A program made the position numbers and the translations under genes. From Candidatus Latescibacterota bacterium (GTDB lineage Bacteria > JAAXHH01 > JACQVL01), in assembly GCA_016209865.1 (NCBI GenBank), contig JACQVL010000054.1, forward strand, positions 1 to 13,483: a DNA stretch of 13,483 nt, read 5' to 3'. Each line of letters opens with the position of its first letter. Within the stretch, counting starts at the first letter, position 1. Shown here piece after piece: positions 96 to 13,475 of the stretch. The notes under the pieces are model-generated. The model made no database searches and was not told the origin of the DNA. It worked only from the letters and a program-made list of their open reading frames with translations.

Positions 96-1130
96 TCAAA
101 ATTCATAAGGGAAGGGGCCGGGGGTTAGGTACTCGTCCGGCACGTCCGAGAACCCCCAGTCCTTCAGTTGCCGTGCCCAGGTGCCGAGGTTCTCTTTGGA
201 CACGCGGACGAGTTCCATCGGGTTGATTACCGGGACGTCCTTCTTGAGGTAGACTTTGTCGATGATCTTCTCGACCGAGACGTAGCCCCACAGGTAGGTC
301 GGCTGGGCGAGCAGCACCGGGACGATGCCTCGCTCGACGTACGGGAGCTCAGGGGGGAGGGCATCGACCGAGACGACCATCATTCTGCGTGGGTCGAGGT
401 CGGTCAACAGCGTCTTGGTGAACAGCGCCCAGCCGCCCACCATCGCCCAGCCGTTTACGGTCGGGTACGCGTTGTTCACGCGGACGACCTCGGCCGCCGC
501 GTCCTGCGGGGTTTCGATGTGGTAGAACGTGCCCACGATCGTGATGCCGGGGTGCTTCGCGGCCTCGCGCTTCACCCCTTCGACGCGCTTCTTGAGGTTG
601 GGCGCGTTCTGATTGCCCGCTAAGATGGCGACCGTGCCCTTTCCATTCATCTGCTTCGCTAATTCGGCCATCACCATCTCTCCCGTCTTGATGTCATCCA
701 CCCCATAGTACGCGAACCGCTTCGAGTCGGGCGCGTCGCTGTCGAACGTCATCACCGGCGTCCCGCGGGCGACCGCGTCGTTGATCGCGCCGGTGACTTT
801 GGCCGCGTCCGAGCAGGAGACGAGGATGACGTCCGCCCCTTCGTTGACCGCCTGCGCGATGCGCTGCGCCTGCACCTGGCCGTCCTCGGTCGGCGGCGTC
901 CGCCAGTCGATGATGACCTGGATGCCGTGCTTCTTCGACAACTCCTTCGCCGCCGCTTCCGCTCCTGTGCGGGCGGAGAGGAAGACCGGGTTGGTGGAGC
1001 TTTTGGCGATCATGCTGATCGTGATCGTCTTCGCGTCCTTTTTCGGTGCGGATTCTGTGCCGCATCTTGCGCTCACCACCAGCACCACGGCGCATCCCAG
1101 CGCCGCAACGAGTCGCATCACCCTGCGCAT
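96..1130 (-). CDS. Sugar-type ABC transporter substrate-binding protein (periplasmic binding protein family 4)
   Basis: A 344-residue periplasmic binding protein of the ribose/xylose type (Peripla_BP_4) that would deliver a sugar or related solute to the adjacent permease. Residues 1-21 form a signal peptide (basic start, then a hydrophobic run LVAALGCAVVLVV). The Cys at 23 could be a lipidation site, but the residue before it is Arg, a poor lipobox, so ordinary cleavage is also possible. Family landmarks include TFDSDAP (128-134) and YYGVDDIKTG (141-150), which match the hinge and ligand-pocket segments of ribose-binding-like proteins. The start lies 10 bp after the permease stop and has an AGAGG-like ribosome site. 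The ligand cannot be told from sequence. Family assignment is firm; the sugar specificity is inference from the family. Confidence 0.9.
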   Translation of the reverse strand: MRRVMRLVAALGCAVVLVVSARCGTESAPKKDAKTITISMIAKSSTNPVFLSARTGAEAAAKELSKKHGIQVIIDWRTPPTEDGQVQAQRIAQAVNEGADVILVSCSDAAKVTGAINDAVARGTPVMTFDSDAPDSKRFAYYGVDDIKTGEMVMAELAKQMNGKGTVAILAGNQNAPNLKKRVEGVKREAAKHPGITIVGTFYHIETPQDAAAEVVRVNNAYPTVNGWAMVGGWALFTKTLLTDLDPRRMMVVSVDALPPELPYVERGIVPVLLAQPTYLWGYVSVEKIIDKVYLKKDVPVINPMELVRVSKENLGTWARQLKDWGFSDVPDEYLTPGPFPYEF

Positions 1131-1140
1131 ACCGTGCCTC

Positions 1141-2199
1141 TCATTCCTTTTCGCCTTTACCGACCACCGATTTCGTCAACCTTCTCACCGTCCATTGCTG
1201 ATTCATCTGATCGAGGACGACGGCGACGATGATCGCGCAGCCGATGATGATCCATTCATAGTTCTGATCGAAGTGGAGCGTCCGGATGGATTGGCGGATG
1301 AGGACGATGAGGATCGCGCCTAACATCGCGCTGAGGGCACTGCCCCGTCCGCCGCTCAGGCTCGCCCCGCCGACGACGGCGGACGCGATGACGTACAACT
1401 CGTACCCGGTCGCATCCGCGCAGGACGCGGAGCCGTAATAGCTGCTCCCGACGAACGCCGCCACCCCGGCCGTCAGGCCCGACACCACATACACCCCGAT
1501 CAGAATCCGTCCTAAGCGCAGGCCGGCATACCGGCTGGCCTCCGCGTTGCCCCCGACCGCGAAGATGTGCCGGCCGATCACCGTCCGGGTCAGGTAGACC
1601 GCGCCGAGGGTGGTGATGACGACCATGATGAGCATAGGCGCCGGGTAGAGGGATTCGCTCAGGCCGAACGACGTCTTGATCACCTCCGTCAACGCGCCCG
1701 GCACGAGGATGCTCTCCGCCTGACTCGTCACGAACGCGATGCCCCGGAACACCCACATCGTGCCCAGAGTCACGATGAACGGGTGGACGCGCAGGCCGAC
1801 GACCATCAGTCCGTTGATCAGGCCGCACATCAGCCCGATCCCCGTGCAGAGCAGCACGCCAGGCCAGACGGTCGATGATGAGGCTTGCGGCCCCAGCCCG
1901 CGCAGCGCCATCGCCATCGTCACCCCCGACAGGGCGTAGACCGACCCGACGGACAGGTCGATCCCCCCGGAGATGATGACCATCGTCGCGCCGACGGCCA
2001 TGATGGCGAAAAAGCTCGCGTCCGTGGCCGTCTGCATCAGGGTGTAGGAATTCAGAAAATTGTTGACCGGTTCCCCGGTCGTCCGGTCGGCGTGCGTCCC
2101 GGCGGACAGCGTGAGGATCGTGCCTAAGAGGAGGATAACCAGGATCAGGCCGGATTGTTGGGCGTTGAGGAGGTGACGGAGCGTCTTGAGAGAGACCAT
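1141..2199 (-). CDS. Sugar-type ABC transporter permease (RbsC/BPD_transp_2 family)
   Basis: A 352-residue inner-membrane permease of the RbsC family, rich in hydrophobic helices. Diagnostic segments are the GIDLSVGS signature (79-86), the loop AVGGNAEASRYAG (214-226) and YVIASAVVGGASLSGGRGS (269-287), which corresponds to the ATPase-contacting region of this family. The frame is open 30 codons further upstream, but that stretch is translated from a hexamer repeat (TSTSTS-like residues), so I chose the ATG at 2197-2199. No clear Shine-Dalgarno precedes it, so the start remains somewhat open. The substrate-binding protein gene follows after 10 bp. An ATPase gene, usually adjacent in such operons, is absent between this gene and the upstream dioxygenase gene. 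The permease must share an ATPase encoded elsewhere or beyond the window edge. Confidence 0.9.
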   Translation of the reverse strand: MVSLKTLRHLLNAQQSGLILVILLLGTILTLSAGTHADRTTGEPVNNFLNSYTLMQTATDASFFAIMAVGATMVIISGGIDLSVGSVYALSGVTMAMALRGLGPQASSSTVWPGVLLCTGIGLMCGLINGLMVVGLRVHPFIVTLGTMWVFRGIAFVTSQAESILVPGALTEVIKTSFGLSESLYPAPMLIMVVITTLGAVYLTRTVIGRHIFAVGGNAEASRYAGLRLGRILIGVYVVSGLTAGVAAFVGSSYYGSASCADATGYELYVIASAVVGGASLSGGRGSALSAMLGAILIVLIRQSIRTLHFDQNYEWIIIGCAIIVAVVLDQMNQQWTVRRLTKSVVGKGEKE

Positions 2200-2226
2200 G
2201 GGCGAAAAGGAGGAAAAACGAAAGAA

Positions 2227-2258
2227 GGTTGAGGTTGAGGTTGAGGTTAAGGTTAAGG
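2227..2258. repeat. Hexamer tandem array GGTTGA/GGTTAA
   Basis: Five consecutive 6-nt units (three GGTTGA, two GGTTAA) plus a terminal GG. A second array in opposite orientation lies 19 nt further on; 18 of 20 positions pair with this one, so the two could form a long stem. The region sits between the dioxygenase and permease genes, upstream of the permease start. Confidence 0.85.
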
Positions 2259-2277
2259 ACTTTCGGTCACCCATCAG

Positions 2278-2299
2278 CCTGAACCTCAACCTGAACCTG
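2278..2299. repeat. Inverted partner of the GGTTGA hexamer array
   Basis: Units read GAACCT, CAACCT, GAACCT, the reverse complement of the neighbouring GGTTGA-type array. Together the two arms could form an mRNA hairpin with a loop of about 19 nt between the dioxygenase and permease genes. Confidence 0.75.
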
Positions 2300-2305
2300 C
2301 TCTTT

Positions 2306-2340
2306 ACTCGTCACTCGTCACTTGTCACTGTTTGTCACCC
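2306..2340. repeat. Seven-nt array ACTCGTC (copy 1)
   Basis: Units ACTCGTC, ACTCGTC, ACTTGTC then a degenerate ACTGTTTGTCACC. The same array recurs at two other gene ends in this window in the same orientation. It ends just beyond the stop codon of the dioxygenase gene, whose last codons also fall in low-complexity sequence. Confidence 0.8.
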
Positions 2341-2343
2341 TTT

Positions 2344-3189
2344 TCACCCCTTCACCGTTTCCCCTTTTTCCCCCTCTTTCTTCGCCTGTCGCCGGGCTGC
2401 CGCTTCACGCTTCTTGGCGGCGGTGGTGTTGGTCTGTCGTTGCCAGTACAGGTCGAGCGGCTGGTCGCGCCGGATGGCCGGAGTGCCGAAGCCGAGAATG
2501 AGCGCCCGGCGCGGGATGTCGGAACGGTTCGGGCCGGTGTAATGAAACGTCCGGCTGAAGTGGAACGTCGCGCCCCCCGCCGACAACGGGCAGGCGACCG
2601 CCGGACAGAGGTCGATGACGCCTTCATCGACTTCGAGCCCGTGAATCCTCGGGTCGTTGTTGATGTGGTGATGGGGTAGAATCTCCAGGCGGTGCGAGCC
2701 GGGGATGAACTGCATGCACCCGTTCTCCAAGGTGGCTTCCTGGAGGGGCATCCAGACGCCCAAGGAGTTGTAGATGAAGTCGGGTGACCAGTACGCTTCG
2801 TCCTGGTGCCAGGGGGTGACACTGCCGTACCGCGCCGGCTTGAAGATCGCGTGCGAGCCGTGGGGCTGCGCCTGCTCGCCTAACAGTTGCTTCGAGATGG
2901 CGAGCGCGTTCGCCTGGTAGAGGGAGTTCCGCAGGCCGGGCGCGTACCGGAGCGGGTCGAGGATCTGCGGCAGCACCGCGACCTGATCGTCTTCGTCAGC
3001 CCCGCCTAAATCGAACTCCATCCCGTCGTCGCGGCCCGCCCGGCGGGTGAAAATGTCATCGTACGCGGCCCGCATCCGCTCGATTTCGTCGGGCGTCGTG
3101 ATCGACTGGATGGCTAAGAACCCGTTGGTGCGAAAAAACTCGACCTGTTCCTGGGTGATGGTGATGGTCGGCGTGGGAAGATCGGACAT
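2344..3189 (-). CDS. PhyH-family Fe(II)/2-oxoglutarate dioxygenase
   Basis: A 281-residue member of the phytanoyl-CoA dioxygenase (PhyH) family: non-haem iron, 2-oxoglutarate-dependent oxygenases that hydroxylate diverse small molecules. The iron triad is visible as H128-x-D130 (in TPWHQDEAYW) and the distal H216 in FHYTGPNRS. Arg227/228 (IPRRAL) is placed to bind 2-oxoglutarate. The GSHR turn at 164-167 is also typical. The ATG at 3187-3189 is preceded by AGGGAG at 7 nt, preferred over an in-frame ATG 8 codons upstream. The C-terminal 25 or so residues (KKREAAARRQAKKEGEKGE) are charged and run into repeat-like DNA, so they are probably outside the fold. The substrate is unknown; this is a broad family, and adjacency to a sugar importer does not settle it. 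Confidence 0.9.
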   Translation of the reverse strand: MSDLPTPTITITQEQVEFFRTNGFLAIQSITTPDEIERMRAAYDDIFTRRAGRDDGMEFDLGGADEDDQVAVLPQILDPLRYAPGLRNSLYQANALAISKQLLGEQAQPHGSHAIFKPARYGSVTPWHQDEAYWSPDFIYNSLGVWMPLQEATLENGCMQFIPGSHRLEILPHHHINNDPRIHGLEVDEGVIDLCPAVACPLSAGGATFHFSRTFHYTGPNRSDIPRRALILGFGTPAIRRDQPLDLYWQRQTNTTAAKKREAAARRQAKKEGEKGETVKG

Positions 3190-3196
3190 CGGTATG

Positions 3197-3202
3197 CTCC
3201 CT
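3197..3202 (-). promoter_or_regulatory. Ribosome binding site deciding the PhyH start
   Basis: AGGGAG on the minus strand, 7 nt before the ATG at 3189. It supports the shorter start over the in-frame ATG at 3213. Confidence 0.7.
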
Positions 3203-3232
3203 GGAGGTCGCATGTAGAAACGGTGTAACGCC

Positions 3233-3263
3233 GATGCCCCGGAACTCGCCGCTCCGGGGCATC
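3233..3263. repeat. Strong perfect hairpin between coiled-coil and dioxygenase genes
   Basis: An 11-bp perfect stem GATGCCCCGGA/TCCGGGGCATC with a 9-nt loop. It lies after the coiled-coil gene and in the leader of the dioxygenase gene. No run of T follows on the minus strand, so it may stabilise, attenuate or separate transcripts rather than act as a standard intrinsic terminator. Confidence 0.7.
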
Positions 3264-3289
3264 AGTCTGCCTTGTCTGGATGGCCCGCC

Positions 3290-3631
3290 TCACCGCCTCG
3301 ACCCGGCTGCTCTGCCCTCCTCACGGAGCCGCTGCAGTTCCTGCTCCTTCTCCGTGATCTTCTGCTCCAGGTCTTTGATCCGGGCGAAGAGGGATCTGAC
3401 CGTATCGTCCGATAGGACGTCGGGCACGGATTCTTCCACGCCCAACTGGTAGACCCGGCCGCCTAATTCGGTCATCTGGGTGCGAATCTCGCCGCGATAC
3501 CCCTGGATCTCGAGCTTCAGCCGGCCCTTCCGGGTCAGGTCTTCCGCCACGTCGAGCGCGTCGGTCAGGCCTTTCCGGACCTTCTCCATCGGGCCATCCA
3601 GCTCCTGTTTGACGGTCTGCCACAGACTCAT
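3290..3631 (-). CDS. Small hypothetical coiled-coil protein
   Basis: A soluble, highly charged 113-residue protein that I do not recognise by family. Residues 1-60 look helical and amphipathic (MSLWQTVKQELDG, KVRKGLTDALDVAEDLTRKG). Residues 80-105 form a clear coiled coil (VRSLFARIKDLEQKITEKEQ). There is no signal peptide or membrane segment. The ATG at 3629-3631 has AAGGAG 7 nt upstream. An in-frame ATG 22 codons further upstream is rejected because the extension encodes the peptide VIPAEAGIQ, which is the translation of the dRS3-like repeat. It lies 75 bp downstream of the TM-helix membrane protein gene, across that repeat. A role as an adaptor or scaffold is possible but unsupported. Confidence 0.75.
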   Translation of the reverse strand: MSLWQTVKQELDGPMEKVRKGLTDALDVAEDLTRKGRLKLEIQGYRGEIRTQMTELGGRVYQLGVEESVPDVLSDDTVRSLFARIKDLEQKITEKEQELQRLREEGRAAGSRR

Positions 3632-3638
3632 AATCGTG

Positions 3639-3644
3639 CTCCTT
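3639..3644 (-). promoter_or_regulatory. Ribosome binding site deciding the coiled-coil gene start
   Basis: AAGGAG on the minus strand, 7 nt before the ATG at 3631. It fixes the start downstream of the dRS3-like repeat. Confidence 0.7.
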
Positions 3645-3664
3645 TCGAGAAAGAAAAGATCAAA

Positions 3665-3693
3665 CTGGATTCCCGCTTCCGCGGGAATGACAG
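3665..3693. repeat. dRS3-like REP hairpin (copy 1)
   Basis: CTGGATTCCCGC-TTCC-GCGGGAATGACAG. The 8-bp stem ATTCCCGC/GCGGGAAT encloses TTCC. It fits the ATTCCC-N8-GGGAAT pattern known as dRS3 in Neisseria and seen in many other bacteria. Read in one frame it gives the familiar spurious peptide VIPAEAGIQ. A near-identical copy lies at 7387-7413. Confidence 0.85.
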
Positions 3694-3706
3694 ACATGAT
3701 TGTTTT

Positions 3707-5293
3707 TTACTCGTCACTCGTCACTGCCTTCTCACCAACCTCTGACTCCTGACCCCTGACCCCTATCCCTTGCATCCGCTCCGCCGGCCGCGACCGTCGC
3801 GTCTCGAATCTTTTGATCCAGTGCTCGATCTGTCGGCCCGCCACGTCCCGCGCCCCTAAGCCGAACGCGAGCGCCGCCCCTAAGCAGAGGGTGCCCAGCA
3901 CCAGCCCGAACCCCACGACCAGGAATTCGTTGGCGATGCCCACCCGCTCGAGCGCCAGGACGAGCGCGAACACGATGATGGCGCTCTTCGCCAGACTGCC
4001 TAAGAACGGCCAGTCCCGCACCGTCCCCCGGACGAGCCGCTTCGCGTAATCCCCGACGTAGATGCCCAGGCCGAGAACGACGAGGCCGAACAGGACGCGC
4101 GTGGCAAACCCGAACAACTGGCTGACCAGGTCGGCGGCGATCTCTAACTGGAGCACGCGGGCGGCCTCGAGGATCGCTAAGAAGATCATCCCGATCATCA
4201 CGAACACCCCGACGAGCTGGGAAGGCGTCCGCCCGTCCCCGCCGACCGTCGTGACCCCGACCCGGCCGAGCATCGCGTCGAACCCGATGCCGGTCAGGAG
4301 GGTCGTGATGAACCGCATGAGCAGCCGGCCGATGATGACCGCGGCGATGATGATGACCAGCGCCGCCGCGGCCCCGGGGAGCACTCTGGTGATGAGACTC
4401 AACATCTCTTGCGCAGGTTTCGAGACCGCCGGGATATCCAGGGTCTCTAACGCGGCGATAAAGATCGGGATCATCATCACCGCATAGATGATCGTCCCGA
4501 TCGCCTCAGACACCTGATGAGGGCCGAGGCCCTCGATCCACCCGATCGTGCGAACCCGATGGTCGAGGCCGAGCACGACCAGCAGGTTGACGATGATCCC
4601 CCTGACGACCTGCGCCACCAGCCAGCCCACGAACAGGACGAGCAACGCCCCGATGATGTTCGGGAGGGTGTTGAGCATCCGGATGAGGATTTCCTTCAGC
4701 GGATCGGTCAGGGGAGATAGCGCAAGCACCCCTAAGGTCGGCGGGATGGCGAGGAGTAAGATCGACCAGAACACGATCGCCGAGACCGCCTCGCTCGGCG
4801 TGACGTTCCCCAGCTCCTGGCCGACGTGCGTCAGCATCCGGTTGTCGAACCCGACCGCCTGGAGTCCTTTGCCGACCCCCACCCGCAGCACGCTGGCGAC
4901 CACCCAGCCGGCAAAGAGGATGAGCATCGCGCCGAGCACGTTCGGCAGGTAACTCAGGACGAGCAGCATCATCTCCCGGAGCGGGTCGGTGATGATCGGC
5001 TGGGCGAGCGCACTCCCGGAGGCCAGCAACGCGCCGGCGAGGATCAGCCAGTACATCAACCGGCCCAGCCACTCCGTCAGCGACCCATCGAACTGGGCGC
5101 CCCACTGCCGGATCGCCTCATCCAGGCGGATGGCGTTCAACAGCCGGACGAGTCCGGCCCGGAGGAGCTTAGCGATAACCAATCCGGCCAGGAGGAGGGC
5201 GGCCGCGTACAGAAAATGGGGCAAGAACTCGACCGCCTCCGCGAGCATGCTGATGAGCATGTTTTTCATCGGGGTGAGCATGGCGAGGATCAT
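3707..5293 (-). CDS. Multi-pass membrane protein with repeated conserved TM helices (MscS-associated TM_helix type)
   Basis: A 528-residue inner-membrane protein made of repeated units, pattern LPNhhGAhhhhhhGWhhAxhhR. The best copies are at 116-137 (YLPNVLGAMLILFAGW) and 210-231 (LPNIIGALLVLFVGWLVA). Divergent copies lie near 24-50, 305-330 and 392-422. This matches the conserved TM helix repeat (PF05552) found in CmpX-like and other MscS-related proteins. The end AFGLGARDVAGRQIEHWI (476-493) resembles the pore-adjacent segment of that group, but no MscS beta domain follows. The start ATG overlaps the dnaJ stop (ATGA), so translation is probably coupled. The last residues, GVRGQESEVGEKAVTSDE, are encoded by the CTGACCCC and ACTCGTC repeat arrays and look acquired. 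Channel activity is inferred from the family only. Confidence 0.85.
   Translation of the reverse strand: MILAMLTPMKNMLISMLAEAVEFLPHFLYAAALLLAGLVIAKLLRAGLVRLLNAIRLDEAIRQWGAQFDGSLTEWLGRLMYWLILAGALLASGSALAQPIITDPLREMMLLVLSYLPNVLGAMLILFAGWVVASVLRVGVGKGLQAVGFDNRMLTHVGQELGNVTPSEAVSAIVFWSILLLAIPPTLGVLALSPLTDPLKEILIRMLNTLPNIIGALLVLFVGWLVAQVVRGIIVNLLVVLGLDHRVRTIGWIEGLGPHQVSEAIGTIIYAVMMIPIFIAALETLDIPAVSKPAQEMLSLITRVLPGAAAALVIIIAAVIIGRLLMRFITTLLTGIGFDAMLGRVGVTTVGGDGRTPSQLVGVFVMIGMIFLAILEAARVLQLEIAADLVSQLFGFATRVLFGLVVLGLGIYVGDYAKRLVRGTVRDWPFLGSLAKSAIIVFALVLALERVGIANEFLVVGFGLVLGTLCLGAALAFGLGARDVAGRQIEHWIKRFETRRSRPAERMQGIGVRGQESEVGEKAVTSDE
3708..3770. repeat. ACTCGTC array (copy 2) followed by CTGACCCC array
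   Basis: ACTCGTC units at about 3709-3726, then CTGACTC, CTGACCC, CTGACCC units at 3742-3766. The order (dRS3-like hairpin, ACTCGTC array, CTGACCCC array) is the same as at 7387-7507. This copy lies inside the 3' end of the TM-helix gene and encodes its C-terminal tail. Confidence 0.8.
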
Positions 5294-6315
5294 CCCGTTT
5301 TCTTGTGTCTGCCGCTCCGGGCAAACGCATCTAAAATTTTCCGCTGCTCGGCGGTGAGGGTCGACGGCGTCACGACGCGAACTCGCACGTACTGATCTCC
5401 CCGGCGGCCGTCCCGCCAGAGGCCGATCCCGGCCAGACGGAAGACCGTGCCCGTCTGCGTGCCGGGCGGGATCGTCACGATCGCCTTGGTCTTGTGGATC
5501 GTCCGCACCTTCAGCTTCGTCCCCATCGTCGCTTGCATGCTATCGATCGGCACCTCGCAGTGGATATCATCCCCCTGCTTCTTGAAAAAATTGTGCGGCT
5601 CCACCCGGAGGGTGACGAAGAGATCCCTCGCCGGCTCGCCGTGCGGCCCTTTCCCGCCCTGTCCCCGGAGCCGGAGCTGGGTGCCGTCATCCACCCCGGC
5701 CGGAATCGTGACCGAGAGGGTGCGCTCCGTCATGATCTCCTTCGACCCATGGCACCGGGGACACTGGACGGTCGAGGTTCCCGGTTTGATCCCGGAACCC
5801 TGGCAGGCCGGACAGGGGGCCGTCCAGAGGAACGTGATCATCGTCTTCCCGCCCGTGATCGCCGTCTCGAACGGGATCGTCACTTCGGCCCAGAGGTCTT
5901 CCCCGGCGGCGCGGCCCCGGCCCTGCCCGCGCGGCCGGTCCGCCTGCTCGAAGATCGTCCGGATCAGGTCATCAAGCCCGCCGACTCCGCTGACTTCGCT
6001 GGCCCCCACCCCGGAGAACGGCGCCCCCCTTCGGGCGGATCGACCGAAGATATCCTCCCAGTTCGGGGTCTTGCCGCCAGTCCGCCAGTGAACCCGGCCA
6101 AACCGCCGGTGCTGGTCGTACTCGTGCCGCTTCTCCGGGTCGCTCAGGACGCCGTACGCGGCCGCGATCTCCTTAAACCGTTCCTCGGCCGCCTTGTCCC
6201 CAGGCTGGCGATCCGGATGGTACTGTTTCGCCAATCGGCGGTAGGCTTTCTTGACGTCTTCCTCAGTCGCCGTCTCCGGCACCCCGAGCACGTTGTAATA
6301 GTCTATCCGTTCCAT
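5290..6315 (-). CDS. DnaJ-like co-chaperone with a half zinc finger
   Basis: A 341-residue DnaJ/Hsp40 protein. The J domain (1-70) carries HPD at 33-35, needed to stimulate DnaK ATPase. A short Gly-rich linker with DIF follows (88-115), then the peptide-binding beta domains (141-165 and 195-320, with IPAGVDDGTQLRLRGQG) and a C-terminal dimerisation-like end. Classical DnaJ has four CxxCxGxG motifs and about 370-380 residues. Here only two Cys pairs remain, CPACQGSG (168-175) and CPRCHGS (185-191), enough for one zinc site. I chose the ATG at 6313-6315. Upstream in-frame codons are encoded by a 7-nt repeat array, and the ribosome site is weak (GAGAGAG). Its stop overlaps the start of the TM-helix gene. 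No dnaK or grpE is in the window, so this is probably an accessory J protein rather than the main DnaJ. Confidence 0.9.
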   Translation of the reverse strand: MERIDYYNVLGVPETATEEDVKKAYRRLAKQYHPDRQPGDKAAEERFKEIAAAYGVLSDPEKRHEYDQHRRFGRVHWRTGGKTPNWEDIFGRSARRGAPFSGVGASEVSGVGGLDDLIRTIFEQADRPRGQGRGRAAGEDLWAEVTIPFETAITGGKTMITFLWTAPCPACQGSGIKPGTSTVQCPRCHGSKEIMTERTLSVTIPAGVDDGTQLRLRGQGGKGPHGEPARDLFVTLRVEPHNFFKKQGDDIHCEVPIDSMQATMGTKLKVRTIHKTKAIVTIPPGTQTGTVFRLAGIGLWRDGRRGDQYVRVRVVTPSTLTAEQRKILDAFARSGRHKKTG

Positions 6316-6328
6316 TTCTCTCTCGTAC

Positions 6329-6356
6329 CGACCACCGACCACTGACCACCGACCAC
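6329..6356. repeat. Four-unit CGACCAC array, left of DUF4159 gene
   Basis: Four tandem 7-nt units: CGACCAC, CGACCAC, TGACCAC, CGACCAC. It fills the gap between the DUF4159 stop and the dnaJ start. Its reverse complement, four perfect GTGGTCG units, is at 7052-7079, so the two bracket the DUF4159 gene as a 28-bp inverted repeat with one mismatch. Confidence 0.9.
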
Positions 6357-6359
6357 TCT

Positions 6360-7112
6360 CTATTGCGACAGCGCAAACGCGACGATGTTGATCCCCATCT
6401 GGAACGCCGCTTCTCGTTTCGGGGGCGGATCATGGTGGACGTCCGGGTCTGCCCATCCATCGCTGATGTTCGTTTCGTAGGTGTAGAGGACGATCAACCG
6501 GCCGTCATGGAACAGTCCGAACCCCTGCGCTGGTTTCCCGTCGTGCTCGTGGATCTTCGGAAGCCCGTGCGGAAACTCATAGATGATGTGGTAGATCGGA
6601 TGAGAAAACGGGAGTTCAACCAGGTCTTTGTCAGGAAACACCCGTTTGAGTTCCCGGCGGAAGGCTTTATCCATGCCGTAATCGTCATCCGCGTACAAAA
6701 ACCCGCCGTGAGTCAGGTACGCCCGGAGCCGCTGGATTTCCGCATCGCTGAGCTTGATCTCCCCGTGGCCAGTCATGAAGAGGATGGGATACGAGAAGAG
6801 GTTGTCATCCGTCAGGCTGATGATCTCCTGTTGCTCGTTCACCGCGATGTCTGCCCGCCGGCTCAGCTCCCGGCACAGGTTGGGGAGGATGTCCGGGTCG
6901 TTATACCAATCCCCGCCCCCGTTGTACTTCAGGCGGGCGATCGTCAACTTGCCGTTGACGACGGCCGCCCCCGTCTGACCGGCCCCCGCCAACGCCAGGC
7001 TGAGGAAAACCAGCCCGATCAGCAGGAAAACCCGGCTGGTGGCGCTGTGCGGTGGTCGGTGGTCGGTGGTCGGTGGTCGGTTCATGCGAGGACAGAAGAA
7101 GCGTTTGGGCAT
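6360..7112 (-). CDS. Exported DUF4159 domain protein
   Basis: About 250 residues with a hydrophobic signal segment (VFLLIGLVFLSLALAGAG) ending near an A-x-A-like site (QTGAA), then a DUF4159 domain. Family landmarks are LKYNGGGDWYNDP near its start, LFMTGHGEIKLSDAEIQRL, and YLTHGGFLYADDDYG. The fold is thought to be related to glutamine amidotransferase-like domains; the biochemical role is unknown. DUF4159 proteins are often larger and linked to BatA/MoxR-type loci, whereas this one stands alone. The start is uncertain: GTG at 7115, ATG at 7112 or ATG at 7085 are all possible. The first two place the peptide RPPTTDHRPP, encoded by the GTGGTCG repeat array, ahead of the signal sequence. It starts about 12 bp after the small membrane protein gene, so the two are probably cotranscribed. 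Confidence 0.8.
   Translation of the reverse strand: MPKRFFCPRMNRPPTTDHRPPHSATSRVFLLIGLVFLSLALAGAGQTGAAVVNGKLTIARLKYNGGGDWYNDPDILPNLCRELSRRADIAVNEQQEIISLTDDNLFSYPILFMTGHGEIKLSDAEIQRLRAYLTHGGFLYADDDYGMDKAFRRELKRVFPDKDLVELPFSHPIYHIIYEFPHGLPKIHEHDGKPAQGFGLFHDGRLIVLYTYETNISDGWADPDVHHDPPPKREAAFQMGINIVAFALSQ
7052..7079. repeat. Four perfect GTGGTCG units inside the DUF4159 5' end
   Basis: Four identical 7-nt units, the reverse complement of the array at 6329-6356. The array lies inside the open frame of the DUF4159 gene and encodes RPPTTDHRPP just before the signal-peptide core. Confidence 0.9.
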
Positions 7113-7124
7113 CACGATTACACC

Positions 7125-7313
7125 CTACCGCCGGGCGCGCCGTGTCGCCGGCCGGCCAGGCCGCTGGGAACTCCCATCCGGGGCGGCCGCACGCCCCTCC
7201 GCCGGACGAACCCGCTGCCCGCCGCCCAGCAGGGCCATCAGCCAGACCAGTCCGGCCGCGAGCAACGCGAAGATGAGAGTGCCAGCGAAACTAAAAAGAA
7301 GATTGGCTAACAT
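7125..7313 (-). CDS. Small single-span membrane protein
   Basis: A 62-residue protein that I cannot assign to a family. Residues 1-30 form one hydrophobic span (MLANLLFSFAGTLIFALLAA, then GLVWLMALLGG). A basic, Pro/Arg-rich tail (PGRPATRRARR) suggests a cytoplasmic C-terminus by the positive-inside rule. A good GGAG ribosome site lies 8 nt before the ATG, and the DUF4159 gene follows almost directly. These points support a real gene despite its size. It may be a membrane partner of the DUF4159 protein; that is inference from position only. Confidence 0.6.
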   Translation of the reverse strand: MLANLLFSFAGTLIFALLAAGLVWLMALLGGGQRVRPAEGRAAAPDGSSQRPGRPATRRARR

Positions 7314-7321
7314 GATGAAGG

Positions 7322-7325
7322 CTCC
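7322..7325 (-). promoter_or_regulatory. Ribosome binding site of the 62-residue membrane protein
   Basis: GGAG on the minus strand, 8 nt before the ATG at 7313. It is the main evidence, with the hydrophobic span, that this short frame is translated. Confidence 0.55.
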
Positions 7326-7344
7326 ATTCTCAGGTAAAAGTAAG

Positions 7345-7374
7345 GGGGTCAGGATTCAGGGGCCAGGGGTCAGG
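7345..7374. repeat. GGGGTCAG array, left arm of a 152-bp inverted-repeat element
   Basis: GGGGTCAGGATTCAGGGGCC followed by AGGGGTCAGG. Positions 7345-7366 match the reverse complement of 7475-7496 at 21 of 22 bases. Between the arms lie the second dRS3-like hairpin and the third ACTCGTC array. Confidence 0.85.
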
Positions 7375-7386
7375 AAAAATCAAGAA

Positions 7387-7413
7387 CTGGATTCCCGCTT
7401 TCGCGGGAATGAC
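7387..7413. repeat. dRS3-like REP hairpin (copy 2)
   Basis: CTGGATTCCCGC-TTTC-GCGGGAATGAC. The stem ATTCCCGC/GCGGGAAT (7391-7398 with 7403-7410) is identical to that of the copy at 3665-3693; the loop differs by one base. It lies in the 195-bp gap between PBP1A and the small membrane protein gene. Confidence 0.85.
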
Positions 7414-7443
7414 AACAGATAGAGGTGAATCAAGCAGTTGTTT

Positions 7444-7507
7444 TACTCGTCACTCGTCACTTGTCACTGCTTTACTGACCCCTGAATCCTGACCCCTGAC
7501 CCCTGTC
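7444..7507. repeat. ACTCGTC array (copy 3) and CTGACCCC array
   Basis: ACTCGTC, ACTCGTC, ACTTGTC, ACTG units at 7444-7468. These are followed by CTGACCCCTGAATC, then CTGACCC, CTGACCC units at 7475-7504, ending just past the PBP1A stop codon. It repeats the module seen at 3708-3770. The second half is also the inverted partner of 7345-7366. Confidence 0.85.
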
Positions 7508-7508
7508 T

Positions 7509-9893
7509 TCAAAACACCCTCCGTTCCTGGCGTTCGACGGGTGACGCCGCCACTGTTGGACGCTTGAACGGGATATCGACGCCAGGAATAGGCGCCCCCG
7601 CCAGCGTCACCGGACTCTGCCCCTCCGGGCCGACCCGGACGAAGACGACGCCCGGCGGGATGTCGAAATCGCGGATCGGGACGGTTTTCAGGGCTTCGCC
7701 CATGAATCGAACCCAGATGGGAAGCGCCACTCGTCCGCCCGTCTGCTCCTTGCCCAAGGGTTGATGGTTGTCGAACCCGACCCACACCCCGGCCACCAGG
7801 TCGGGCGCGTACCCGATGAACCATGCGTCCCCATAATCATCCGTCGTCCCCGTCTTCCCGGCTAAGGGGCGGTTGAGGACGTTCGCGCGCCGGGCGGTCC
7901 CCGTCAGGACGACGTTCTTCAGCAAATCCGTCATGATGTACGCCGTCGCCGGGGAGAGGGCGTAGCCCGCCGGGAGCGGGTCCTGGTCCGCCTGAGGGGG
8001 ATCGTCAGAGAACGCGTTCAGCCGGGTGTTGTCCTCCAGGACTCGACCGTACCGATCCTCGATCCGCTTGATGAAGACGGGCTCGATGCGCCGGCCTCCG
8101 GCCGCGAACACGGTGTACGCCCTCACCATCTCGACCGGGGTGACGCTCATCGACCCTAAGGCGATCGTCATGTTCCGGGGGATGGGGGACGTGATGCCGA
8201 GCCGTCTGGCGTACGCGATCGTCTCGTCCATCCCGACATCCGCTAAGAGCCGGACTGACACCGTGTTGAGGGACTGCGCTAAGGCGTTCCGGAGCGGCTG
8301 AGGTCCCAGGTACTTGTTCCGGTAGTTGCGCGGGCTCCACATCCGGCCGTTCGTCCCCCGGAACGCCACCGGCCCGTCGAGGACGACCGACAGCTCGGTG
8401 TACCCGTGATCGATGGCCGCCGCGTAGAGCATCGGCTTGAACGACGACCCCGGCTGCCGCTGCGCCTGCACCGCCCGGTTGTACTGGCTCCGGGTGAAGT
8501 CATACCCCCCGACCATCGCCTTCACGAACCCGGTCTTCGGGTTGAGGGCGATCAGCGCGCTCTCGACGCGCGGCTCCTGGTCGATGGCCACGGTGTACCG
8601 GCGGGGCGACCCGCCCGTCACCCGAACCCGGATGACATCGCCGGGCGTCAGGTGCTCCCGAAGCGGACGGGTGACGATCACATCCGGGCCGGGAGAAGAC
8701 CGGGTTGCCCACGCGCTCAGTCCCTCATCCACCACCCCGCGGAACCGTCCGATCGTGACGTCGATCGCAGGGTCGGTCCGGACGACCAGGGCGGCGTACC
8801 GCTTCCCAGCCCGCAGGCCGGGCGCCGGCGGCCATCCGGCCGTCTCGTTCCGGAGCGCCTGCATCTGCCGGCGCTGGAACTCCACCCAGTCGTCCTCGGT
8901 GTCGAGATGGAGTTCCGGCCCCCGGAACCCTTGCTGTTTGTCGAGCGCGTCCAGCCCTTCCCGGACCGCTTCCTGCGCCGCCTGCTGCATCATCACGTCC
9001 ATCGTCGTAAAGATCCGCAGTCCCCCAGTATAGAGCTGATCGGCGGAATACTTCTTCATCACCGCCTGGCGCACAGACTCCACAAAATACGGGGCGATGG
9101 CTAAGTTTTTGTTGTCTACGGGCACGAGCCGGATCGGCTCCCCCCACGCCAGGTCCGCCTCGTCCTGGGTGATCCAGCCATCCTGGACCATCCGGTTCAG
9201 GACGTAGAGCTGGCGGTTCTTCGCGGTCGCGAAATCTGTCTGGGGAGAATAGGCGCTCGGCGCTTTCGGGAGTCCGGCCAGCATCGCCGCCTCGGCCAGG
9301 TCGAGGCCGCCGACGTCCTTGTTGAAATAGTTCTGGCTCGCCGCCTGCACCCCGTAGGCCCCGTTGCCCAAGTAGACCTGGTTGAGGTACAGGAAGAGGA
9401 TGTCTTCCTTCGTCAGCTCCCGCTCTAAGCGGAACGCTAAGATCGTTTCCTTGATCTTCCGGCTGTACGTCCGTTCCCGCGTCAGGAACAGCATCCGGCC
9501 GACCTGCTGGGTGATCGTGCTGCCCCCCTGGACGACCTCATGCGACCGCAGGTTCTTGATCAGCGCCCGCACGATCCCGACGGGATCGACGCCGCTATGG
9601 TAATAAAAGTACTGATCCTCGGCGGCGATGAAGGCGTGAAGCACATAGGGAGGGATCTGCGCCAGTGGGACGATCATCCGCCGCTGGATGTAGAACTCAC
9701 CGACGACGCGGCCGTCGTCCGCGTACACCTCGGTCAGGATCGGGGGGCGATAATCGCGGATCGTCTGGAGATCCGAAGGGAGATCACGGTTGAAATGCCA
9801 GTACAGGCCACAGACGGTCAGACCGCTGATGATGATCAGACTGGTCGCCACTACGACCACTGGCTTGACCCAACGCCATCGCCGGGTGCGCAT
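7509..9893 (-). CDS. mrcA: Class A penicillin-binding protein (bifunctional glycosyltransferase/transpeptidase, PBP1A type)
   Basis: A 794-residue peptidoglycan synthase anchored by one N-terminal helix (about 11-32). The glycosyltransferase family 51 domain (about 60-235) has the catalytic Glu92 in AAEDQYFYYHSG, GGSTITQQ at 123-130 and RKIKE at 145-149. An insert at about 321-445 matches the OB-like domain of PBP1A proteins. The transpeptidase domain has the nucleophile Ser483 in SSFK (483-486), SLN (541-543) and KTGT (680-683), so both activities look intact. The ATG at 9891-9893 lies 4 bp after the stop of the upstream D-Ala peptidase gene; a frame extension upstream overlaps that gene and is rejected. 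The pair probably forms one transcript, joining glycan polymerisation and crosslinking to peptide trimming. Length and order fit PBP1A (MrcA/PonA); the exact symbol is family-level. Confidence 0.95.
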   Translation of the reverse strand: MRTRRWRWVKPVVVVATSLIIISGLTVCGLYWHFNRDLPSDLQTIRDYRPPILTEVYADDGRVVGEFYIQRRMIVPLAQIPPYVLHAFIAAEDQYFYYHSGVDPVGIVRALIKNLRSHEVVQGGSTITQQVGRMLFLTRERTYSRKIKETILAFRLERELTKEDILFLYLNQVYLGNGAYGVQAASQNYFNKDVGGLDLAEAAMLAGLPKAPSAYSPQTDFATAKNRQLYVLNRMVQDGWITQDEADLAWGEPIRLVPVDNKNLAIAPYFVESVRQAVMKKYSADQLYTGGLRIFTTMDVMMQQAAQEAVREGLDALDKQQGFRGPELHLDTEDDWVEFQRRQMQALRNETAGWPPAPGLRAGKRYAALVVRTDPAIDVTIGRFRGVVDEGLSAWATRSSPGPDVIVTRPLREHLTPGDVIRVRVTGGSPRRYTVAIDQEPRVESALIALNPKTGFVKAMVGGYDFTRSQYNRAVQAQRQPGSSFKPMLYAAAIDHGYTELSVVLDGPVAFRGTNGRMWSPRNYRNKYLGPQPLRNALAQSLNTVSVRLLADVGMDETIAYARRLGITSPIPRNMTIALGSMSVTPVEMVRAYTVFAAGGRRIEPVFIKRIEDRYGRVLEDNTRLNAFSDDPPQADQDPLPAGYALSPATAYIMTDLLKNVVLTGTARRANVLNRPLAGKTGTTDDYGDAWFIGYAPDLVAGVWVGFDNHQPLGKEQTGGRVALPIWVRFMGEALKTVPIRDFDIPPGVVFVRVGPEGQSPVTLAGAPIPGVDIPFKRPTVAASPVERQERRVF

Positions 9894-9897
9894 CTTC

Positions 9898-10842
9898 TCA
9901 TCCCCCAACCTTCTGTTCGGGCGTCTGAAGTCCCCAGAAGAGCAGTCTCCGCATGTCCGCAAACCGGGACGCGCTCGACACTCCGCCCAGCACGACCGCC
10001 ACGACGCCCTCCCCCAGACGATTGCGGGCGAGGGTGACCAGACAATACCCGGATTGCCGGATGTACCCGGTCTTCCCGCCGAGAATTTCCCACATCGACG
10101 CCTCCGGGCTTCTCAGTAACCGGTTCGTCGTGATGAGCTGATGCTGACGGCGGTTCGTCGAGAACCGGTATTCTGGAGTCGGCATGATCTTGGCGATGAT
10201 GTCGTTCTTCGACGCGTTCCAGAGCAACGCCGCGCAGTCGACCACGGTCGAGACGTTGCCCGGATCCAGGCCGGTGGGGTCGGCGAACGCGGAGTTCATC
10301 AGGCCGAGGCCGGACGCCATCTGGTTCATCCGGGTGATAAATTCTCCCCTCGGCAGCCCGGATGTCCGCGCGATCGCCCGGGCCGCCGCGTTGTCGGAGG
10401 AGACCAGGGCCGCGTAGAGGAGGTCCCGGACGGTCACCGTCTCCCCGGTCCTGAGCTGCGTCCATCTCGCCCCCCGGACATCCTCCCGGATGATCGTGAC
10501 CGTCTTGTTCAGGTCCGGGTTCATGTTCAAGAACGTGATCACCGTCATCAATTTCGTCAGACTGGCGATCGGGAGCTGGGCGGTCGGGTTCTTCTGGTAG
10601 AGCACTTCCCCGCTCTGCAAGTTCACGACTAAGGCCGCCTTCGCCCGGATGTTGATCGTGCCGTCAGGGGAGGGGACCCCGACATCGACAGGAGCAGGCT
10701 GGCGGCGCGCTGGCTGCCGGCGCCCCGCCTGTTTCTTCTTCGACCGGGGCACCCCCTCAGTCATCGACGGGGTGACGAGCATTCCCGTGACCGCCAGTCC
10801 CAGCACGATCGCTAACGTCCTGTCTCGCCAGCGCTGCATCAT
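9898..10842 (-). CDS. D-alanyl-D-alanine peptidase (S11 family, low-molecular-weight PBP)
   Basis: A 314-residue serine peptidase that trims or cleaves peptidoglycan peptides in the periplasm. An N-terminal export helix (about 9-25) precedes a basic, Pro/Arg-rich linker (32-52). The penicillin-binding motifs are all present: S94-LT-K97 (IASLTKLM), S149-D-N151 and K257-T-G259. There is no extra C-terminal domain, so it resembles the short PbpG/PBP7 (endopeptidase) type as much as the DacA/DacF carboxypeptidases. The ATG is preceded by a GAGGGGG-type ribosome site. PBP1A follows 4 bp after its stop, so translation is likely coupled. Upstream, beyond a short repeat-bearing gap, is the c-di-AMP synthase fusion gene. 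Family is certain; carboxypeptidase versus endopeptidase is not. Confidence 0.92.
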   Translation of the reverse strand: MMQRWRDRTLAIVLGLAVTGMLVTPSMTEGVPRSKKKQAGRRQPARRQPAPVDVGVPSPDGTINIRAKAALVVNLQSGEVLYQKNPTAQLPIASLTKLMTVITFLNMNPDLNKTVTIIREDVRGARWTQLRTGETVTVRDLLYAALVSSDNAAARAIARTSGLPRGEFITRMNQMASGLGLMNSAFADPTGLDPGNVSTVVDCAALLWNASKNDIIAKIMPTPEYRFSTNRRQHQLITTNRLLRSPEASMWEILGGKTGYIRQSGYCLVTLARNRLGEGVVAVVLGGVSSASRFADMRRLLFWGLQTPEQKVGG

Positions 10843-10867
10843 GCAGTCCCCCTCTCTAAAGGCAGTG

Positions 10868-10886
10868 GTCAGTGATCAGTGGTCAG
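10868..10886. repeat. GGTCAGT array, inverted partner across the cdaA stop
   Basis: GTCAGTGATCAGTGGTCAG in the 72-bp gap between the cyclase fusion gene and the D-Ala peptidase gene. It pairs with 10954-10972 at 17 of 19 positions, on the other side of the cyclase stop codon. Confidence 0.8.
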
Positions 10887-10914
10887 TAAAACTAACCCCC
10901 TTAAACCTTAGCTG

Positions 10915-12450
10915 TTAACCCGTCCTTACCGCTGTCTTACCGGCCACTGACCTCTGACCCCTGATCACTGGCCTTCTCCTGGATTGCGAGACCGGCTTGT
11001 TCGCCGCCGGCCGGTTCAGACTGATGCTGACCATCACCTCAGGGATGGACGTCCTGAACGAATAGACGTGCTGGGGCGAGATTTGCACTTTGCACGGGAT
11101 CGTCCGGCTCTCTGTGAGGGCGGCCAGGTCGATCGGGACGGTCGTTACCCGCTGGATAAGGTTGAGTTCCGCGACCGGCCCGCGGAGTTCGACCGTCTCC
11201 GGCTGGATGGCCACGCTGGCGAGCTGCAGTCCTTCCCGCAATTGTCCGGTGTACGAGAAGCGCACCGGAAACCGCCGGCTGACGATCTTATCGAATTTCA
11301 TCGTGATCGCCTTCGGGTCGATCGCCGTGGCTTCCATTCCGAGCGGGAGGCTCAGGTTATCGTCCGTGATGGGGATGGTATTCAGTCCTTCATGGGCGGA
11401 CGCTAAGTTCAGCTGGACCCGAATCTGGTCGGGACGCAGGGTGGAGATGCTCCCCCGCGGTCCCCGGACCCTGACCTGCACTTCGGTGTCCTTCATCGAG
11501 GCGCTCACGATATCGAGATCAGGCGGGACGTTCTGGTACTCCAGCTTCGCGTTCACGAACGTCTCAGAATACTGCTGGCCGACGAGCAGAAACCAGAGGA
11601 GGCAGGACAGCCCCAGCGCTAAGAATTTAGCCGCTAAGTTCCGGTGCAAGAGTTCAAAGAGGGACGCCCTGACCCACGTCCACTCCGGCTGCGTCGGCTG
11701 CGGCAAGAGATACTGCTCCAGCCGCTGTTTGAGTGGCTCCGCCCCGGCGACCGCCTCGATCTCGCCGTCGTGGACGAACGACACCATGCCCCGTTCTTCG
11801 GAGACAACGACGCACACCGCATCCCCCTGTTCGGTCAGGCCGAGCGCCGCCCGGTGCCGCGTCCCGTACCGGGGCGGCAGTCCTTCACGGGTTGACAGGG
11901 GGAGGTAACACCCGGCTTTGACGACCCGGTTCTTCTCCACGACGACCGCCCCGTCGTGAATCGGGGACGTATTCTGGAAGATGCTGAGGAGCAATTCTTC
12001 GCTGACCAGGCCGTCGAGCGGGATCCCGTCCTGGAGCAGCTCAGAGACGGGCGTCACGCGGGGAAACACGATCAGCGCTCCGATCCGCCGGTCGGCCATG
12101 CGCACGCACGCTTCGACCACATCCGACAGCACCTCATGCGGGACGGTGCGTCCCTTCAACTTGAGGATGGCCAGCGGGCTCGCTTTCTCTAAGAGCTGAC
12201 GGATTTCCGGCTGGAAGATGACGATCACCAGCACCAACAGGATCGCCCACAGGTACTGGAACAGCCAGCTCGTCAGGAACAGACCGCTCCATTGCGCCAG
12301 GAAGTACAGCAGCCCAAGCCCGGCGAGGCCGATCATGATGTGGAATGCGCGCGTCCCCCGCAGCCAGATGTACACGCTGTAGATCAACGACGCGACGATC
12401 ACGATGTCGAGATAATTCTGCCACTGGAGCAAGAACAGACGGTTGAGCAT
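10915..12450 (-). CDS. cdaA: CdaA-type diadenylate cyclase fused to YbbR (CdaR-like) domains
   Basis: A 511-residue membrane protein that should make c-di-AMP from two ATP. Residues 14-79 hold three membrane helices as in CdaA. The DisA_N cyclase domain (about 95-245) keeps the DGA motif (166-168), GTRHRAA (196-202) and a downstream SEE (217-219), so it looks active. A fourth helix (about 273-291, LAAKFLALGLSCLLWFLLVG) leads into two YbbR-type domains (about 296-480), the CdaR region that in Bacillus is a separate protein regulating CdaA. Here synthase and regulator are one chain, with the YbbR part predicted outside the membrane. The ATG lies 4 bp after the htpX stop; a longer frame overlapping htpX is rejected. 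The final residues (PVIRGQRSVAGKTAVRTG) come from repeat DNA. glmM, the usual downstream neighbour, is absent; peptidoglycan genes follow instead. Confidence 0.93.
   Translation of the reverse strand: MLNRLFLLQWQNYLDIVIVASLIYSVYIWLRGTRAFHIMIGLAGLGLLYFLAQWSGLFLTSWLFQYLWAILLVLVIVIFQPEIRQLLEKASPLAILKLKGRTVPHEVLSDVVEACVRMADRRIGALIVFPRVTPVSELLQDGIPLDGLVSEELLLSIFQNTSPIHDGAVVVEKNRVVKAGCYLPLSTREGLPPRYGTRHRAALGLTEQGDAVCVVVSEERGMVSFVHDGEIEAVAGAEPLKQRLEQYLLPQPTQPEWTWVRASLFELLHRNLAAKFLALGLSCLLWFLLVGQQYSETFVNAKLEYQNVPPDLDIVSASMKDTEVQVRVRGPRGSISTLRPDQIRVQLNLASAHEGLNTIPITDDNLSLPLGMEATAIDPKAITMKFDKIVSRRFPVRFSYTGQLREGLQLASVAIQPETVELRGPVAELNLIQRVTTVPIDLAALTESRTIPCKVQISPQHVYSFRTSIPEVMVSISLNRPAANKPVSQSRRRPVIRGQRSVAGKTAVRTG
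10954..10972. repeat. CTGACCCC/GATCACTGG array inside the cdaA 3' end
   Basis: CTGACCCCTGATCACTGGC lies within the last codons of the cyclase fusion gene and forms the inverted partner of 10868-10886, enclosing the stop codon in a 67-nt loop. Adjacent sequence (CACTGACCTCTGACC) extends the array. Confidence 0.8.
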
Positions 12451-13422: not shown

Positions 13423-13475
13423 CCCCCGCTCCCCCTTCCCCTCTCCGCAAGCGGAGAGGGGAAGGGGGCTGGGGG
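13423..13475. repeat. Long REP/MITE-like hairpin, 18-bp perfect stem
   Basis: The arms CCCCCTTCCCCTCTCCGC (13431-13448) and its exact reverse complement (13451-13468) are separated by AA. A further CCCCC/GGGGG pairing across a small internal loop extends the stem to the full range. It lies upstream of htpX and is palindromic, so it could act as a bidirectional terminator for the preceding gene or be a dispersed repeat copy. The window then ends with GTAGGGG, the same seven bases that open the element at 18-73. Confidence 0.85.

Follow-up and report, generated by a model that had tools for sequence, protein, structure and literature searches.

Short dispersed intergenic modules, often present as inverted pairs with variable spacers, are known as repetitive extragenic palindromic (REP) sequences and bacterial interspersed mosaic elements (BIMEs). 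Tandem heptamers form another group of dispersed repeats; those of cyanobacteria are called short tandemly repeated repetitive (STRR) sequences. As summarized in a report on Xanthomonas, the cyanobacterial heptamers include arrays in Calothrix and the unit GGGGA(C/T)T in Nostoc, in which inverted pairs are few (PMC4692102). Reports of a heptamer excess in bacterial genomes go back to 2007, and its cause is not agreed upon, a preference in slippage and the formation of G-quadruplexes having been proposed (PMC4679880, PMC4692102). Rehm et al. (2015) described arrays of about four GGGAATC units in Xanthomonas campestris and X. axonopodis, which are located on the coding strand after stop codons and on the other strand before start codons and include 70 to 75 close inverted pairs, mostly transcribed; these authors favored G-quadruplexes (PMC4692102). 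MacGregor (2015) described TAACTGA arrays in the Beggiatoaceae, mostly in the forward orientation and just upstream of start codons, with one inverted case among 170 sets (PMC4679880). The subject of this report is a set of tandem arrays of short units, mostly heptamers, at the borders of genes in a 13,483-nucleotide contig (JACQVL010000054.1; hereafter the window) from the Candidatus Latescibacterota assembly GCA_016209865.1. A preliminary description of the window had listed eight such arrays and grouped them into four inverted pairs.

Same-unit inverted pairing of the arrays

The window is contig 349 of this assembly (G000), which has a size of 3.75 Mb and is 83% complete. Genome-wide statistics were obtained from 945 kb of the assembly, which is roughly 25% of a single draft genome and was taken in stretches. 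Tandem arrays were detected by autocorrelation, and about 800 genes (88% coding) were called with a dicodon model, the calls being crude. The contigs of this sample were chosen partly for the presence of ACTCGTC, while 160 kb was picked blindly; the blindly picked portion gave a picture like that of the rest.

Adjacent arrays less than 200 nt apart included 57 same-unit inverted pairs and no same-unit direct pairs, whereas 2,000 permutations of the units gave expectations of 7.9 inverted pairs (maximum, 17) and 8.2 direct pairs. Both a G-rich array (G-form) and a C-rich array (C-form) were present in 61 of 719 gene gaps, and the units matched by family in 49 of these two-form gaps, compared with an expectation of 16.5 and a maximum of 26 in 2,000 shuffles. 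At distances of 300 to 3,000 nt, 14 of 142 array pairs were inverted and of the same unit, no more than expected by chance. Thus, the genome-wide excess of same-unit inverted pairs and the greater likeness of nearby units, both anticipated in the preliminary description, were detected. A cassette consisting of a C-form arm, a gene and a G-form arm, moving as a mobile gene, was considered and rejected, as unit matching of gene-flanking pairs was not above chance.

All eight arrays of the window were found at, or a few bases from, the positions previously listed. Complementarity of the arms was 88% over 24 nt (2223-2246 and 2278-2301), 97% (6327-6356 and 7052-7081), 82% over 33 nt (7345-7377 and 7471-7503) and 84% over 25 nt (10863-10887 and 10946-10970), and the scores of all four matches far exceeded the shuffled maxima. 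Only one of the four pairs thus reaches the 90 to 96% given earlier, a figure that overstates the match of the others. Three pairs are of a type that could form hairpins, one of the possibilities raised earlier for all four; the arrays at 6329 and 7052, however, have the C-rich array on the left and the G-rich array on the right and enclose the DUF4159 gene. As unit matching falls to chance at gene-length distances, each of these is a border array in its own right; the two share a family but are not a hairpin pair. The unit does differ between pairs, as claimed, but is not private to a pair, the sample containing about seven genome-wide families with roughly 14 to 140 arrays per family.

Module form, placement and occurrence in relatives

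In the first 337 kb of the genome, 90 period-7 arrays were detected versus none in triplet-shuffled sequence; hardly any arrays had a period of 5, 6, 9 or 10, and a period of 8 was minor. The 945-kb sample contained 326 period-7 arrays, 278 of them mostly intergenic, and 42 period-8 arrays, 34 of them mostly intergenic. The unit length, given previously as 6 to 8 nt, is really 7, with 8 being secondary and 6 rare; the GGTTGA hexamer family is small and is an exception among the units of the window. The main families are ACGAGTG, AAAATCC, ACCACCG, AAGGACG, ACCCCTG, AACCCCG and ACCACTG. An exact 16-mer, ACTCGTCACTCGTCAC, occurred at 160 sites in the genome, while its reversed control occurred at none.

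Most families exhibited a peak at four units, and the module, slightly longer than four units, measures about 31 nt. Array lengths were 24 or 31 nt for ACGAGTG, 31 to 32 nt for AAAATCC, about 30 nt for AAGGACG and 32 to 33 nt for AACCCCG. The phase of the array was fixed whatever the unit (123 of 140 ACGAGTG arrays begin with AGTG), and arrays were preceded by an A-rich, AAARC-like sequence and often followed by AAAA. In ACGAGTG arrays of 31 nt, variation was almost absent from the first and last units, while position 14 was C, A or G; detection bias at the ends of arrays may account for part of this pattern. A supply of stop codons in all frames was rejected as a general property since it holds for AGTGACG but fails for GGATTTT and CGGGGTT. 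Two AAGGACG gaps (L024:1161-1299 and L040:6226-6409) contained further scattered copies of AAGGACGAAAA in the loop, as if modules multiply inside a gap.

The polarity of the arrays was strict. The G-form was to the left of the C-form in 60 of the 61 two-form gaps, and an inverted partner was located to the right of a G-form in 72 cases versus 0 and to the left of a C-form in 86 versus 2. The G-form is on the coding strand just after a stop codon and on the non-coding strand before a start codon, each form being nearer its own border. The median distance to the gene was 4 nt at stop borders and 30 nt at start borders, and 52 of 172 stop-border arrays overlapped the gene end. Nearly half of the gene gaps of at least 80 nt contained arrays, and presence did not depend on the orientation of the neighboring genes (co-oriented, 135/282; convergent, 17/30; divergent, 22/50). 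Single arrays accounted for a little over 70% of the occupied gaps, about 160 gaps being occupied on one border only. These single arrays also had the G-form beside the left gene and the C-form beside the right gene in all four gene orientations, with a weaker adherence at start borders.

The order to which this bacterium belongs was represented by 16 genomes from three families. In a relative from another family (G013; 51% G+C, 440 kb), period-7 and period-8 arrays again dominated, but the units were different (AATCACC, AAATCACC, AATTATG and AAAGTAC). Eight of 14 close neighbors in this relative were same-unit inverted (0.7 expected); the G-form was nearer the left gene by 21 to 7, and the C-form was nearer the right gene by 29 to 6. 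Sampled stretches of the other relatives in the order had no arrays or few. A syntenic block of SBP, permease, coil, DUF4159, dacA and cdaA genes is kept in 12 relatives, in which no arrays were detected at the junctions; the arrays of the window are thus lineage specific. The phyH gene (2344-3189), the MS-channel and DnaJ genes (3707-6315) and the PBP1A gene (7509-9851) interrupt this block, which is contiguous in the relatives, and most of these joints carry arrays. Outside the order, an inverted heptamer pair of the same type (ATTTACG and AAATCGT, separated by 108 nt) was observed in a Bacteroidetes contig (L127:4893-5066), and a contig of another genome (L149 of G016, 395-3978) contained longer heptamer arrays of up to 59 nt with several units within 3.6 kb.

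A proposed border role and its alternatives

A tentative reading, to which we assign slightly less than an even chance, is that the arrays are border modules dispersed through the genome and that, where two of them are retained around a gap, they make up a bidirectional, imperfect hairpin with one unit in both arms. The placement, polarity, length and family matching of the modules are shown: non-coding arrays of about 31 nt, with AAARC and AAAA as flanks, lie at the edges of gene gaps, the G-rich strand leading out of the gene on the left and the C-rich strand leading into the gene on the right. When both borders are occupied, usually by one unit family, the gap is enclosed in a long, slightly imperfect inverted repeat. 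Unit matching could be kept through pairing of the arms, in an RNA hairpin formed by one or the other strand or in a DNA cruciform. Such a stem may then act as a bidirectional border between transcription units, by blocking an exonuclease or read-through or by marking the transcript end; occupancy irrespective of gene orientation fits such a border. Same-family pairing above a threshold would suffice, with single mismatches and unit identity drifting freely, and new modules would spread by copying among family members, through ectopic conversion or a mobilizer, rather than by local inversion. It is also possible, though doubtful, that bacteria possess a border architecture that is unit agnostic, in which evolution conserves the geometry (two inverted heptamer arms of about 31 nt around the gap, with the G-rich strand leaving the gene) while the heptamer turns over and varies between the gaps of one genome and between related genomes but stays matched per gap.

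Three elements of the window folded far better than shuffled sequences (z of −3.8 to −5.9), so that the hairpins suggested in the preliminary description are possible structures, although their role would be a matter of interpretation; single arrays folded no better than shuffled sequences. Several results weigh against a border role maintained by pairing. The single-armed gaps are polarized, and pairing alone leaves this polarity unexplained. The frequency of arm mismatches was 0.091 within pairs versus 0.083 across pairs of one family, and in the transcript orientation there were 41 G-U versus 43 A-C mismatches. A candidate mobilizer was not found, and no called intrinsic terminator (a G+C-rich stem-loop followed by a T run) coincided with arms in the window. 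The arm mismatches thus gave no sign of base-level RNA selection, although an even split of G-U and A-C would also be expected of a stem used on both strands. RNA-only selection, looked for as a G-U excess, was rejected, as were compensatory or mirrored arm variants, for which there was a slight deficit. A RAYT mobilizer was rejected because no match to Y1_Tnp (PF01797) was obtained in the genome, which, being 83% complete, makes this absence uncertain. No match reached the gathering score in Rfam.

The main rival is selfish or neutral dispersal, in which modules are copied through gaps and purged from genes and ribosome-binding regions without having any border function, and family matching mirrors the mode of insertion, as it would if each event inserted two copies of a single donor family. 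The absence of arrays from the syntenic junctions of the 12 relatives, a copy number that is very high but patchy (the exact family sequence AGTGACGAGTGACGAGT occurred in 0 of 58 other genomes), the frequent entry of arrays into the ends of reading frames and the lack of refinement of pairing are all in keeping with such dispersal. Arrays were also slightly more frequent at broken junctions (23 of 53) than at conserved ones (10 of 37; P = 0.13), a comparison that bears as well on the idea, not adopted here, that arrays mark rearranged junctions. Strict polarity, even between convergent genes, would be hard to obtain neutrally, however, and the constant length of unrelated units, the failure of loops to be carried along and the occurrence of the same rule with other units in the relative and in Xanthomonas (PMC4692102) also argue against it. 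Dispersal without function is a real possibility but, in our estimation, not a probable one. Local copying and inversion, through template switching across a hairpin and later growth by slippage, would make the pairing a mutational by-product. Both slippage and template switching at quasipalindromes are established as sources of mutation, and the unit is indeed shared within a pair but different in neighboring pairs. Nevertheless, within-pair complementarity was not raised, variant positions were not mirrored, arm lengths were uncorrelated within pairs (Spearman 0.17, P = 0.24), mismatches were even, and the arms bore genome-wide family variants, such as C or A in unit 2 of ACGAGTG arms; the array length was near constant, as opposed to the broad distribution given by free slippage. 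Recent local copying with inversion, one of the origins put forward in the preliminary description, is therefore disfavored as the main source and judged unlikely.

The second origin put forward there, namely, that small mobile elements resembling miniature inverted-repeat transposable elements (MITEs) have these arms as their terminal inverted repeats, is consistent with inverted arms, dispersed copies, an intergenic location and the nearby REP-like palindromes. The 70 enclosed loops (median, 80 nt; range, 7 to 161 nt) nonetheless had no common sequence apart from a REP-like ATTCCC/GGGAAT palindrome in 24 and a few other small palindromes, even though the arms matched at about 91%. As the loops are unrelated, no single element has these arms as its ends; the variable loop length, the single-armed gaps and the missing Y1_Tnp gene point the same way, and the explanation is disfavored and very unlikely. 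G-quadruplexes, as proposed for GGGAATC in Xanthomonas, could draw on the shared placement and preference for about four units (PMC4692102) and on the families AACCCCG and ACCCCTG, which have four G-runs. ACGAGTG, AAAATCC and AAGGACG, which are the most abundant of the families, lack a run of three Gs but exhibit the same length, polarity and pairing, and since these still obey the geometry, quadruplexes are refuted as the general cause here, a reading that we regard as barely credible, although the two G-run families may form them. Stems between cistrons could, alternatively, join stop and start codons for translational coupling, as arms are located about 4 nt past stops and about 30 nt ahead of starts, and 36 of 40 early pairs were between co-oriented genes. 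Co-oriented gaps are simply the commonest, however, and the equal occupancy of convergent and divergent gaps of at least 80 nt weakens this account, leaving it highly improbable.

Features of the window and comparison with known systems

The arrays and palindromes of the window are listed in Table 1.

Table 1. Arrays, arms and palindromes located in the 13,483-nt window
Feature	Coordinates	Strand	Context
G-form arm, hexamer unit GGTTGA	2223-2258	+	Left border of gap from permease start (2199) to phyH stop (2344); folds with 2278-2301
C-form arm CCTGAACCTCAACC	2274-2301	-	Inverted partner of 2223-2258
C-form array ACTCGTC, family ACGAGTG	2306-2329	-	Outer layer at phyH stop border; same-unit partner absent there
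REP-like palindrome GGATTCCCGCTTCCGCGGGAATGACA	3663-3692		Gap between coiled-coil gene and MS-channel gene
Two C-form arrays, ACTCGTC (3709-3725) and CTGACCCC (3742-3764)	3709-3764	-	Overlap MS-channel stop; encode last residues ...KAVTSDE*
C-form array ACCGACC, family ACCACCG	6327-6356	-	3 nt beyond DUF4159 stop; G-form on coding strand after stop
G-form array CGGTGGT, family ACCACCG	7050-7081	+	Start-side border of DUF4159; not hairpin partner of 6327-6356
G-form arm GGGGTCAG, family ACCCCTG	7345-7377	+	Outer left arm of gap ahead of PBP1A stop
REP-like palindrome	7385-7414		Within loop of 7345-7377/7471-7505 pair
C-form array ACTCGTC	7445-7468	-	Inner layer, within loop of 7345-7377/7471-7505 pair
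C-form arm CTGACCCC	7471-7505	-	Inverted partner of 7345-7377; adjoins PBP1A stop (7509)
G-form arm CAGTGGT	10863-10887	+	Upstream of dacA (start, 10842); flanked by AGGC and AAAAC
C-form arm GGCCACTGACCTCTGACCCCTGATCACTGG	10939-10970	-	Partner of 10863-10887; overlaps 3′ end of cdaA-ybbR reading frame

The two REP-like palindromes are of the form GGATTCCCGCTTTCGCGGGAATGACA, the core of which was found 64 times in the 945-kb sample. Reading frames enter arrays at 3707-3730, where ...KAVTSDE forms the end of the MS-channel protein, and at 10915-10975, where CdaA-YbbR ends in array-coded residues, and both gene ends have probably been reshaped by the arrays. Such arrays lengthen the predicted C termini of proteins and disturb the annotation of gene ends, which should serve as a warning. 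The frame at 10915-12450 fuses CdaA_N and DAC diadenylate cyclase domains to a YbbR domain, and single matches in the relatives span the same extent as the fusion. Intergenic inverted repeats that are not heptameric are present at 18-73 and 13424-13475 (GGGGCGAATACAAGATTCGCCCC type; CCCCTCTCCGC/GCGGAGAGGGG).

Compared with REP sequences and BIMEs, the modules described here are likewise short, dispersed, intergenic and often paired inversely, but the arms are tandem heptamer arrays rather than palindromes and do not fold alone; several unrelated sequences serve, and Y1_Tnp was not found in this 83% complete genome. MITEs differ in having an interior common to the copies. The Beggiatoaceae TAACTGA repeats are also short heptamer arrays at gene borders and provide stops in all frames in one orientation; they differ in consisting of one unit with a bias to start codons and in being almost without inverted pairs. 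The cyanobacterial heptamers are similarly tandem, intergenic and dispersed through the genome, while family-matched borders are not among the properties given for them in the summary cited above.

The closest system is the GGGAATC repeat of Xanthomonas. The preliminary description knew of no named repeat family behaving in this way, yet the Xanthomonas repeat shares the architecture with one unit (PMC4692102): intergenic tandem units of 7 nt, mostly about four in number, the same strand placement at stops and starts, and close convergent (inverted) pairs were all found here. The difference is that a single G-run unit is used there, compared with at least seven families here, most of them without GGG and unable to form the G-quadruplexes proposed there; in addition, the borders of a gap are family matched here, and the units of a relative are different again. 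Geometry is separated from sequence in a genome whose several unrelated heptamers hardly differ in length, polarity and placement, and a pairing-based border role becomes directly testable, for example, by swapping the unit of one arm. Should the architecture prove to be unit agnostic, the Xanthomonas repeats, too, would be read in terms of pairing instead of G-quadruplexes. The architecture was already known in Xanthomonas with one unit; what is new here is the presence of several units that are matched within each gap.

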